From assembly GCF_010119205.1 (NCBI RefSeq), contig NZ_WRXM01000002.1, positions 116,982 to 180,981 on the forward strand: a stretch of DNA of 64,000 bases. Reading direction: 5' to 3'. This document shows, piece after piece, positions 20,202 to 24,162 of this stretch. Below the pieces are notes generated by a model. It was not told where the DNA came from and did not search any database. It saw only the letters and a program-made list of their open reading frames with translations. The stretch is from Haloarcula limicola (GTDB lineage: Archaea > Halobacteriota > Halobacteria > Halobacteriales > Haloarculaceae). The position numbers and the translations under genes are program-made. Positions within the stretch are counted from its first letter, which is position 1. Each line of letters starts with the position of its first letter.

Positions 20202-20816
20202 TCAGATATCGACGGGACACCCGTTTATCTCGCCGCCCCGCATCCCGTCGGCGAGCCAGTGGATCGAGAGCGTGAGGACCACGAGCGCGCCCAGCGCGAA
20301 CTCCAACCCGTCGAGCGGCAGGAAGACGAGCGAGGCGGAGACGCCAAGCAGCGAGAGCAGTCCGAGCAGGACCGCCGACCCGCAGGCCGCACAGCCCGCG
20401 CCGAGCGTGCCCAGCAGGACGCCGGCCGCACCGGCACCGCCCTCTCTGATGGCGACACCGTGCTCCCGGAAGTGATAGGTCGCCATCGCCACGTCGACCC
20501 CGGTCAGCGCCGCGACGGCCACCAGCAGGAGGCCCTGTGCCGGATGGAAGAAGGTCCCGACGAACGGGTACAACTCCGCGAGGACGGTCAGCCGACTTTC
20601 GAACGGCAGCGACCCGCCGACGACGAGATCCAGCACGAGCGGGACGTTCAGCGAGACGACGAAGGCCGTCAGCGAGAGAGCGGCCGCGAGAACGGCGACG
20701 GCAGCGTAAGTCGGTAGCGTGAGGACGAGTCGGACGGTTCGGCCCATCAGCCGCCAGTCGCGCCGGGACAGCGGCGGGCGCAGTGTGCGCACCGTGCGCC
20801 GCCAGCCCCCCGTCAC
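20202..20816 (-). CDS. Membrane protein with CxxC motif, paired with DsbA-like lipoprotein
   Basis: A 204-residue membrane protein with about five hydrophobic segments (about 30-55, 56-68, 93-112, 128-165, 170-190). The motif GCAACGSA places Cys142 and Cys145 at the start of a membrane helix, and a further Cys200 lies near the C-terminus. I recognise no named family. Its ATG overlaps the stop of the thioredoxin-like lipoprotein gene at 20813, so the two are translated together. By analogy with DsbB/VKOR it could reoxidise or reduce that partner; this is inference. Confidence 0.8.
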   Translation of the reverse strand: MTGGWRRTVRTLRPPLSRRDWRLMGRTVRLVLTLPTYAAVAVLAAALSLTAFVVSLNVPLVLDLVVGGSLPFESRLTVLAELYPFVGTFFHPAQGLLLVAVAALTGVDVAMATYHFREHGVAIREGGAGAAGVLLGTLGAGCAACGSAVLLGLLSLLGVSASLVFLPLDGLEFALGALVVLTLSIHWLADGMRGGEINGCPVDI

Positions 20817-21466
20817 GACGCCTCCCCGAGCGCCTCCGCGACCACCTCGTAGCTGACGCTGCCGTTGACTTTCGTGACGAACTGGCCGTCCCGAAAGAGG
20901 AGGACGACGGGTGTCGTCTCGCCCAATTCCGCGTTCTCGGCCGCGTCGATGTCGGCCTGTACGGCGTCGTCGTAGGCCCGGCTCTCGGCGTCGCTGACGA
21001 CCGCGTCCGCGTCGAGGGCCGTCTCCTCACGCAGGAACGCCCCCGTCCGGTCGAGGACGTTCTCGGCGGAGAACTGCGAGCGGTTCTCGAAGTAGTGGCC
21101 CAACAGCGACCAGAACGCCGCGTCGTCGCGGGCGTAGGTCGCCTCCAGCGCCTGGCTCGCCGGCTCACCCCACGGGAACACGACGGGATACACTCGGACG
21201 ACGAACGCGCCGAGTCCCGGCTCGACGAGCCTCGACAGGATCTCCGGCACCGTCTCGGCGTGAAACGCCGCACAGCGCTCACAGGACGGGTCCTCGAACG
21301 CTAACACGACGTGGTCGCCGAGGTCCCCCCGTCGTGGCTGGGCGTCGAGTCCCGCCGCAGCGGGGTGGTTTTCGATGGAGTCCCCCGTCGCATCGCTGCC
21401 CCCGCAGCCCGCGAGTCCGCCGGCGAATCCCGCCCCCGAGAGCGCCAGGAAGCGTCGTCGCTGCAT
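20813..21466 (-). CDS. DsbA-like thioredoxin-fold lipoprotein, Tat-exported
   Basis: A 217-residue exported protein. The N-terminus MQRRRFLALSGAGFAGGLAG has a twin-arginine start and a lipobox ending at Cys21, the usual haloarchaeal Tat lipoprotein signal. The thioredoxin-like core has FEDPSCERCAAFHAETVPEI with the CxxC pair Cys62/Cys65, an inserted helical domain, then GETTPVVLLFRDGQFVTKVN with the cis-proline near TTP. It probably exchanges thiol-disulfides on the outer face of the membrane. A TATA-like GATAAACCC on the minus strand (about 21490) precedes the ATG by 25 nt. Confidence 0.87.
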   Translation of the reverse strand: MQRRRFLALSGAGFAGGLAGCGGSDATGDSIENHPAAAGLDAQPRRGDLGDHVVLAFEDPSCERCAAFHAETVPEILSRLVEPGLGAFVVRVYPVVFPWGEPASQALEATYARDDAAFWSLLGHYFENRSQFSAENVLDRTGAFLREETALDADAVVSDAESRAYDDAVQADIDAAENAELGETTPVVLLFRDGQFVTKVNGSVSYEVVAEALGEAS

Positions 21467-22005
21467 ACCGTCGGAAGGGACTCCCCGGGTTTATCGTTTC
21501 TCCCGTGTGCTTCCGAGGGGCAACCGTCTTGCCGCCGCGTCCGGTAGGGTCGCCCGGCCGATGACGACGGCGCGTTCCGAGCCGCGGTGACTCCGCGGCG
21601 GTGACGAACCCTATGAGTGCCGAGGCCGACTCCCGACCGGCGTCTCGGTCGGCCGTTCTCCGAAATCACTTCCGGACAGCGCAGCGCCGGTCGGCGACTC
21701 TTCGCTCGGTCGCCGGGTGACCGTCATCGGGTCGGTCGATGCGCCGGCGACCCCCGCTACCGTCTGGTATGCCCATACAGGCCGGCTGTTCAATGACGTG
21801 ATCCCCTAACGGAAAGACGACGTTTTCTCCGTCGACGCGACGGCTTCGTTCGCCGCGGTCATCTCACTCGCCCATCAGAGCCGGGCGGCCTCGCCGTCGC
21901 GGGGCCGGCGTCACTGCCGGGGAGCACGGTGTGTCAGCGCCAGTCACGATCGGAGAGATTTCGAACAGCGTTTTCCGACCCGGGCCCCAGTTACGACTTG
22001 AGAAG
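21467..22005. other. Long gene-poor interval
   Basis: Between the lipoprotein start and the next gene, reading frames are short and lack family features. The left end holds the promoter of the lipoprotein gene. The centre is GC-rich with several short inverted repeats (for example CGACCGGCGTCTCGGTCGG near 21634). I see no RNA gene or mobile-element remnant in it. Confidence 0.5.
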
Positions 22006-22593
22006 ATGACGAAAGCGTCTGTACAACCCGGTGAACTCCGGGAGCTTCGGCACCGCTTCGGTCCGCAGATCAACGGACTCGTCAACGCGCTCGGGCAGCC
22101 GACGACACAGGTGTATCCCTCGGGGTACGTCGGGACCGTCGAGCGCTCCATCGAGACGCTCGAGTCGGCCCTCACCGACGGCGGGTTCACGTGGGACCCG
22201 GTGAGCATGTACCACCGCTCGCCGACCGGAAGCACCGCGGACGGGAGCTGGGTGTACAGGGACTCGCCGCTGGCCGACCGGCAGCTCCACGTCGTCCTGT
22301 TCTCCCAGAGTTACAACGGTTGGACCGACGTCTACGCCCACGAGGAGTTCAGCTGGCTCCGTCACCCGATCAAACACGCCAAGGAGGAGCGGATCACGCG
22401 CGAGGAGGGCGTCGCCGAGACGCGTCGGTGGCTCGACGACGCCGGCATCGCCTATCGAACCCACTCGAACCTGCGCCGGAAGGCGAGACAGGCGGTGAAA
22501 CGAGCCCACGAGCGCCTCGTGGACGGCGGTCGACAGCTCGGACACCCGAAGCTCGAGACACCGGCCGTGAGCGCCGTCTTCGAGCGGCTATAG
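22006..22593 (+). CDS. Haloarchaeal hypothetical protein
   Basis: A 195-residue soluble protein: TKASVQPGELRELRHRFGPQ, TTQVYPSGYVGTVERSIETL, WDPVSMYHRSPTGSTADGSW, HVVLFSQSYNGWTDVYAHEE and WLRHPIKHAKEERITREEGV. The C-terminal third is basic and helical (RRKARQAVKRAHERLVDGG). I recognise no family or catalytic motif. The ATG at 22006 is used; a start 75 bases upstream is possible. The gene stands alone. Confidence 0.7.
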   Translation: MTKASVQPGELRELRHRFGPQINGLVNALGQPTTQVYPSGYVGTVERSIETLESALTDGGFTWDPVSMYHRSPTGSTADGSWVYRDSPLADRQLHVVLFSQSYNGWTDVYAHEEFSWLRHPIKHAKEERITREEGVAETRRWLDDAGIAYRTHSNLRRKARQAVKRAHERLVDGGRQLGHPKLETPAVSAVFERL

Positions 22594-22685: not shown

Positions 22686-22787
22686 TCAGCGCCGTCGGAG
22701 CAGGCGCCGTCCTTTGCGAACGATGCGTCGCCGCACGCTACGCGGGAGTCGTCGCCAAGTCTTCATCGCCTTTCGAAGTTTTCCCAT
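22686..22787 (-). CDS. 33-residue arginine-rich micro-protein
   Basis: The reading frame begins MGKLRKAMKTWRRLPRSVRR and ends RKGRRLLRRR, giving 33 residues with more than a third Arg/Lys and almost no acidic residue. A perfect GGAGGTG Shine-Dalgarno site (22795-22801) lies 7 bases upstream of the ATG, an unusual strength in a genome rich in leaderless genes. The same frame stays open upstream to 22886, but those residues look non-coding. Such a basic peptide could bind nucleic acid or membranes; no function is known to me. Confidence 0.65.
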   Translation of the reverse strand: MGKLRKAMKTWRRLPRSVRRRIVRKGRRLLRRR

Positions 22788-22794
22788 TGAATAG

Positions 22795-22801
22795 CACCTC
22801 C
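22795..22801 (-). promoter_or_regulatory. Perfect Shine-Dalgarno site of the 33-residue gene
   Basis: On the minus strand GGAGGTG is followed after seven bases by ATG at 22787. The match to the 3' end of 16S rRNA is complete, and it supports translation of this very small gene rather than the longer open frame around it. Confidence 0.75.
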
Positions 22802-23003
22802 GTCGGGTTAGCTCGTGCCCGCTCTCGCTCGCCGCGGGCATCGTGGATACCTCGCGGTCGGTCTTAACGCTGCGGGCTGCAAGCACGGCTCGCGGCTCTC
22901 GTGATACCGCCTTCCGGTACGGACGCCGGGGCTTTCCGACGAAACGGGAGCGGACGAGAGTGGCGACGGCAGTGTCCCCTCCGAGACGCGGGGGACGCGG
23001 ATC

Positions 23004-23924
23004 TCAGTCGTCGGTCATCGAGTCGATGCTGGGGCCGCCTTGCCGGACCTCGTCGTCGAGGTCGGGCTCTTTGGACCCGAAGGTCACGTGGCCGTACTTG
23101 ACGAGGGAGACGAAGACGACGCCGCCGATGGCGTTGCCCACCGACGTGAGGGCGAGGAACTGTCCCCACTGGGCGACCGAGATCGGCGCGCCGGCCATCA
23201 TCGCCGCGATGACCTCGATGTTGCCGGCGACGCAGTGGGGCATGTGCGCGAAGCCGATGAGGTACGTGACGGCGACGATGACCGCGATCCGACTGATCGT
23301 GTCGCCGACGGAGGTCAGTATCCACGAGAGCAGGCCCATCAGCCACCCGGCGAGTATCGCGCCGGCGAAGACGCCCTGCGGTGAGAGGTCGATGAACGTC
23401 ATCCCCGTGTCGACAAGATATTTCGGCTTGATGACGCCGAGCGCCACCGTCGCCCAGCCGACGAAGACCGCGGCGACGGTTCCACCGATGATGTTCCCGC
23501 TGTAGACGAGCGTCCAGAGACGGGCGAGGTTCGAGATCGAGTCGCGCCCGTCGAGGACCGGTAGGACGGCCAGGGTCGTGTGTTCGGTGAACAGCTCCGA
23601 CCGCCCGAGAATGACGAAGAGGAAGCCGAAGGTGTAGAGTATCGGCATGATCGCGTGGGCGATCGGGTCCGCCACGGCCCCGCTCAGCGACGTCAGCATG
23701 GCGATCATCATGAAGGGGCCGAGGCTGATGTCGAGCCCGCAGGACACCGAGGAGACGAACTGCCCCGCGGCCGGCCGATTGAGGGTTCGCATCCCCTCTT
23801 GGAGCTGGTTGTAGAAGATGTCCGTGTACGACCGCTGGGTGTCCATCTGGCTCTCCGGCGGCGGTCCCTCTTGGTGCGATTCCTCCGTCGTGTCGTTCGG
23901 CTCGTCTGAGGTTGCTGGAGACAT
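23004..23924 (-). CDS. Formate/nitrite transporter (FNT) family channel
   Basis: A 306-residue protein with a hydrophilic N-terminus (about 1-55) and six membrane segments. FNT signatures are SCGLDISLGPFMMIA, GRSELFTEHTTLAVLPVL and LWTLVYSGNIIGGTVAAVF, and the pore-histidine region GFAHMPHCVAGNIEV gives His227, His230 and Cys231. FNT pentamers pass formate, nitrite, hydrosulfide or similar weak acids. The ATG at 23924 is chosen because it starts the Ser/Glu-rich N-terminus and lies 10 bp after the small membrane protein gene. A paralogue is at 36558. Confidence 0.9.
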   Translation of the reverse strand: MSPATSDEPNDTTEESHQEGPPPESQMDTQRSYTDIFYNQLQEGMRTLNRPAAGQFVSSVSCGLDISLGPFMMIAMLTSLSGAVADPIAHAIMPILYTFGFLFVILGRSELFTEHTTLAVLPVLDGRDSISNLARLWTLVYSGNIIGGTVAAVFVGWATVALGVIKPKYLVDTGMTFIDLSPQGVFAGAILAGWLMGLLSWILTSVGDTISRIAVIVAVTYLIGFAHMPHCVAGNIEVIAAMMAGAPISVAQWGQFLALTSVGNAIGGVVFVSLVKYGHVTFGSKEPDLDDEVRQGGPSIDSMTDD

Positions 23925-23934
23925 TGTAGGCGGT

Positions 23935-24162
23935 TCAGTCGGGCGTCTCACCCGTCTCATTCGGGTCTCGGTTGGAGTGGGGCGATATCTGCGTGTCGAG
24001 GTAGTCCGAGTGCCGTGCGAGTTCGACCGGGCCACCGATCAGGAGCGGGATGCAGACGAGCGCCGCTATCGGTCCCCACGGAATCCGCAGACCGATCGCC
24101 ACGATCCCGAACACGGCGATACTGAGGACGGACATCACGCGAATCGGCTCTTCGATCCTCAT
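23935..24162 (-). CDS. Small two-helix membrane protein upstream of FNT
   Basis: A 75-residue protein with two membrane helices (VMSVLSIAVFGIVAIGLRIP and WGPIAALVCIPLLIGGPVEL) and a short hydrophilic tail. It ends 10 bp before the FNT gene on the same strand, so it is probably co-transcribed and may be an accessory subunit. No family recognised. Confidence 0.65.
   Translation of the reverse strand: MRIEEPIRVMSVLSIAVFGIVAIGLRIPWGPIAALVCIPLLIGGPVELARHSDYLDTQISPHSNRDPNETGETPD

Follow-up and report, generated by a model that had tools for sequence, protein, structure and literature searches.

The 33-codon open reading frame (ORF) on the minus strand between positions 22787 and 22686 of the window, the 64,000-nucleotide stretch of Haloarcula limicola DNA analyzed here, is, as judged from its substitution pattern across genomes, a protein-coding gene under purifying selection, scattered among haloarchaeal lineages. 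The Arg/Lys-rich microprotein it encodes belongs to a conserved family that none of the family libraries searched contains, and whose genes lie, in most lineages, at a locus that ranks among the most translation-linked in haloarchaea.

Coordinates, composition and start codon

The following features of the window were considered.

22787 (ATG) to 22686 (TGA; stop within the coordinates), minus strand: 33-codon Arg/Lys-rich microprotein ORF, conserved at about 49 places in Halobacteriales genomes and under purifying selection
22801 to 22795, minus strand: Shine-Dalgarno (SD) match GGAGGTG, with a 7-nt spacer to the ATG; retained in all three Haloarcula copies
22817 to 22839, minus strand: putative leader stem-loop with the arms GCCCGC / GCGGGC (suggestive)
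22863 to 22867, minus strand: TTAAG box about 80 nt before the ATG, a probable TATA-like promoter element
23004 to 24035, minus strand: formate/nitrite transporter family protein (PF01226, E 2.3e-42), whose end lies some 217 nt upstream of the ORF start on the same strand
21931 to 22593, plus strand: 220-aa protein of no Pfam family, between the ORF and the DsbA-like gene
20813 to 21466, minus strand: DsbA/thioredoxin-like lipoprotein, present in 30 of 32 Haloarcula genomes

Translation of the minus strand from 22787 to 22686 yields MGKLRKAMKTWRRLPRSVRRRIVRKGRRLLRRR, 33 residues with 13 Arg and 4 Lys (K+R = 17), neither Asp nor Glu, and a pI of 12.0. An earlier note on this DNA had described a 33-residue gene with 15-17 Arg/Lys and few acidic residues, preceded by GGAGGTG at 7 nt from the ATG, and was correct in each of these points. 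The window contains 236 ATG frames of 25-59 aa, of which six have an SD match of at least 6 nt and two a K+R content of at least 45%; this ORF alone combines both. As 17 K+R are reached by 82 of the 7418 stop-free 33-aa segments in the six frames of the window, Arg-richness by itself is partly a by-product of high G+C and weak evidence for a gene. Neither Arg-richness nor the SD match alone proves the gene; it is conservation that does.

In the window, the frame stays open for 73 codons upstream of the ATG, such that the DNA alone would allow a longer GTG start. Many relatives, however, carry an in-frame stop 2-3 codons 5' of the ATG, which makes a longer start impossible in them; because conservation also begins at the ATG, this codon is settled as the start.

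Conservation and distribution

A search with the single sequence returned homologues in two more genera of the same family. A profile built from 13 sequences and run on 392 genomes of the order gave matches in 53 of them, spanning six families (f1, f4, f5, f7, f14, f17), with about 49 matching places at E 1e-8 or better and the others borderline. A degenerate DNA pattern fitting all 40 members taken was run against the genomes of about 85,000 species and produced 27 matches, all of them haloarchaeal, in genera including Halomarina, Halocatena, Haladaptatus, Halogeometricum, Halogranum, Haloprofundus, Halegenticoccus, Halobium, Halalkalicoccus and Haloarcula. In a 295-genome sample of the phylum, matches were confined to the known order, and no match was obtained in plasmids and phages (tblastn) or in viral contigs (pattern). 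Since most genomes of the order lack the ORF, this survey indicates that its product is not a core ribosomal protein.

All 40 members examined start with ATG, encode 30-39 residues and have a net charge of +11 to +18. M1, K3, W11, P15 and I22 are invariant, and L14, R13 and A7 nearly so. Across 12 independent pairs, codon positions 1/2/3 differ 37/22/89 times, with 90.5 synonymous changes at 328 sites and 57.5 nonsynonymous changes at 890; single close pairs are noisy for dN/dS, and two lie near 1. Of seven close pairs, most show a higher identity within the ORF than in its leader, trailer and flanks, with a tie between ORF and leader in G165/G187. The chance that the frame is spurious, a product of high G+C composition, is negligible: equally Arg/Lys-rich segments do occur in the window and most congeners have no clear copy, but this explanation is refuted by the conservation of ATG, length and silent-site bias across genera.

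Within Haloarcula, a clear copy is found in 3 of 32 genomes and lacking in 29, with the matches beyond G002 and G022 at E 0.016 or worse. The protein of G002 (likely Haloarcula amylovorans) is identical to the window copy, and the two genes differ at 7 of 99 nucleotides, every one a silent third position; the G022 protein is 91% identical to the window copy, with a dN/dS of 0.14. Identity of the ORF to the window copy is 0.93 for G002 and 0.84 for G022, and drops to 0.67 and 0.66, respectively, in the 70 nt after the stop. Together with the retained GGAGGTG, these values are what the earlier note had proposed to look for in relatives, namely codons and SD site conserved at low dN/dS. Its view of the ORF as a gene is therefore supported by the relatives that have it, with the qualification that 29 Haloarcula genomes are without a clear copy.

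The Haloarcula ORF is located on the minus strand between the genes for the formate/nitrite transporter and the DsbA-like lipoprotein, and the latter gene adjoins it in G022 as well. The aIF5A locus of Haloarcula is intact but does not contain the ORF, and no hidden copy was detected in 30 such loci within 1.5 kb flanks. Outside the genus, the closest relative of the window protein is that of G198 (likely Halalkalicoccus paucihalophilus; 82% identical). Transfer or relocation of the ORF in Haloarcula is possible. The 220-aa protein encoded on the plus strand at 21931-22593 has related sequences in only 5 other of the 32 Haloarcula genomes.

Leader elements and genomic neighborhood

In 32 of 40 homologues, the start codon is preceded by an SD match of at least 5 nt, and with a single exception the spacer in these measures 4-10 nt; four of the 40 (three of four Halocatena copies and G349) lack a match of at least 4 nt. 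The sequence thus has the hallmarks of an SD-led gene, an anti-SD match a few nucleotides before the start that is kept in relatives. Frameshifts or loss of the ATG or SD site in relatives had been named in the earlier note as arguments against the gene; none of the 40 members has a frameshift or lacks the ATG, and SD loss is confined to those four. According to one report, SD motifs in the 5' leaders of Haloferax are not used (PMC3986360). The ORF family offers a natural test of this report, given that the SD match is kept in 32 of 40 members while the flanks diverged; as a sequence pattern, this conservation suggests that some haloarchaea may use SD sites, or that the site has another use.

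A TTAAG/TTATGA box is found 66-80 nt upstream of the ATG in about 20 of 40 homologues. As the TATA box of Haloferax lies at -29 to -25 relative to the transcript start (PMC3986360), transcription is predicted to start near -40, at the foot of the stem-loop. The stem-loop is seen in several lineages, and its arms vary between them with their pairing kept (ACCTGC/GCAGGT, GCCTGC/GCAGGC, ACCCGC/GCGGGT, TCCCC/GGGGA, GCCCGC/GCGGGC); 23 of 40 leaders have a stem of at least 5 bp, where shuffled sequences would give 9.2. Of two control stretches, one was raised too (18 vs 11.2 expected) and the other was not; the leader hairpin is for this reason likely rather than proven. The Halocatena-type genome G042 carries the microgene twice (L069, L085), at different sites and with the same protein sequence, neither copy being beside aIF5A; both have a TGTCT..AGACA leader hairpin just 5' of the ATG and little or no SD.

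Leader and trailer pair better with their native than with swapped partners, most strongly in Haladaptatus and two Haloarcula copies. A universal leader-trailer pairing was nevertheless dropped, as the mean z against dinucleotide shuffles is only -0.69. These pairings and the excess of leader stems would fit a structured or dual-function RNA as the conserved unit, with the peptide of minor importance. The protein-type substitution pattern and the poorly conserved trailer argue against it, as do the low mean z and the lack of an above-threshold Rfam match (the one sub-threshold match falls on the opposite strand, inside the transporter gene), and we consider this reading highly improbable. In the Haladaptatus group (L090-L092, L095, L097, L099, L100), the leader contains ACGAGCGG or AAAAGCG, which can base-pair with a CCGCTCGG or CGCTTTT sequence 3' of the stop codon; changes on the two sides appear to compensate for each other.

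At about 32 of 40 loci, the ORF lies between a NIF3-family gene, from which it diverges, and the genes for agmatinase and aIF5A, with which it converges, and deoxyhypusine synthase is nearby in many cases; these names were assigned by eye from sequence and from the Haloferax cluster HVO_2297-HVO_2300 (PMC5178350). That cluster is described as tied to translation, and the paper's treatment of the aIF5A-agmatinase cluster does not mention the ORF (PMC5178350). With this divergent and convergent orientation, the ORF shares no operon with the translation genes. It is present at only 2 of 30 aIF5A loci, mostly from one family and inspected with a 1.5 kb flank (the G349 copy lies beyond that reach), and is sited elsewhere in Haloarcula and some Halocatena. 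The shared position beside aIF5A may reflect mere common ancestry. No co-directional gene follows directly downstream, which speaks against a leader peptide of the attenuator type; the gene that comes next points toward the ORF and is that for agmatinase in most loci and the plus-strand gene at 21931-22593 in the window.

Predicted fold and possible function

Searches of Pfam, NCBIfam and PHROGs gave chance matches only (in Pfam: PRANC, 0.068; Aldedh, 0.12). The PDB yielded mL78 and aldehyde dehydrogenase by sequence, at a chance-level E of about 1, and nothing by fold. No homologue of known function was thus found in any of these searches. In an AlphaFold2 model based on an alignment of 31 sequences, residues 3-13 and 16-32 form helices joined by a Leu-Pro hinge (mean pLDDT 87, pTM only 0.39). 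In the members tested, the second helix is amphipathic, with a hydrophobic moment of 0.71-0.85, and both helices have a negative mean hydrophobicity. Neither helix qualifies as a hydrophobic transmembrane segment, which speaks against a type I toxin peptide, and plasmids, phages and viral contigs gave no match either.

The ribosomal protein eL41 (Pfam Ribosomal_L41) is likewise very short, rich in Arg and Lys, and helical, as the microprotein is predicted to be; however, 13 members gave no Pfam match to it at E <= 1, profile searches of the PDB returned no eL41 chain at E <= 10, and the microprotein is patchy in its presence. Bacterial DUF1127 (YjiS-like) proteins, of less than about 55 residues, are also small and Arg-rich, with RNA or a protein partner described as their target (PMC12501420, PMC11707872, PMC12218461). 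The microprotein, in contrast, does not match the DUF1127 Pfam model, is limited to haloarchaea, and has a W-R-R-L-P motif and a two-helix layout. The CPxCG zinc-finger micro-proteins of Haloferax are haloarchaeal and shorter than 70 residues (PMC11241148), whereas the window copy and the aligned members are free of cysteine, basic and not zinc-binding.

The reading we tentatively favor is that of an accessory microprotein bound to RNA or the ribosome, although we stop short of calling it probable. Binding to RNA is preferred because a charge of this size in a salt-filled cell would fit RNA best, and a role in translation because of the aIF5A neighborhood, although the ORF lies outside that operon. 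The microgene would be transcribed alone from the predicted promoter some 65-80 nt upstream, giving a short leadered monocistronic mRNA with the predicted stem-loop followed by the SD site. Translation from the ATG would produce a 30-39-residue protein of +11 to +18 with two short predicted helices, hinged at the invariant Pro after the near-invariant Leu. The Arg/Lys face of the second helix would contact RNA, probably rRNA or a ribosome in translation or assembly, and Trp11, Pro15 and Ile22 would stabilize the fold or this contact. As an accessory factor, it would be dispensable for many haloarchaea. A more specific version is speculative and rather unlikely: the microproteins would form a new haloarchaeal family that associates with the ribosome and is linked to the aIF5A (deoxyhypusine) locus, and their mRNA would keep a working SD and 5' stem-loop. 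If true, it would place these two elements in a group regarded as largely leaderless and SD-independent.

Other placements of so basic a protein were weighed. The strong charge, with no acidic residue in the window copy, could serve a nucleoid or DNA-binding peptide; we regard this as very unlikely, with no match to a DNA-binding family in Pfam, NCBIfam, PHROGs or PDB, a patchy presence and nothing specific to DNA. For an amphipathic membrane-surface or antimicrobial-like peptide, the second helix would be suited, but the negative mean hydrophobicities, the lack of a stretch long enough to span a membrane, and a conserved chromosomal synteny in place of a plasmid, phage or viral context leave it a slim chance. 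The third placement is a protein-protein adaptor that would bind a single acidic haloarchaeal enzyme through its conserved Trp-Leu-Pro-Ile face, much as small, Arg-rich proteins of bacteria bind a sensor kinase; action via the sensor kinase PhoR has been reported for small DUF1127 proteins (PMC12501420). Invariant W11, P15 and I22 and near-invariant L14 exceed the needs of plain charge and speak for such a face, yet no co-inherited partner was identified, aIF5A being found in 291 of 293 genomes and the ORF in only a minor fraction of the order, and we deem the adaptor unlikely. At codon 12, the Arg that follows the invariant Trp is encoded by CGA in 26 of 40 members.
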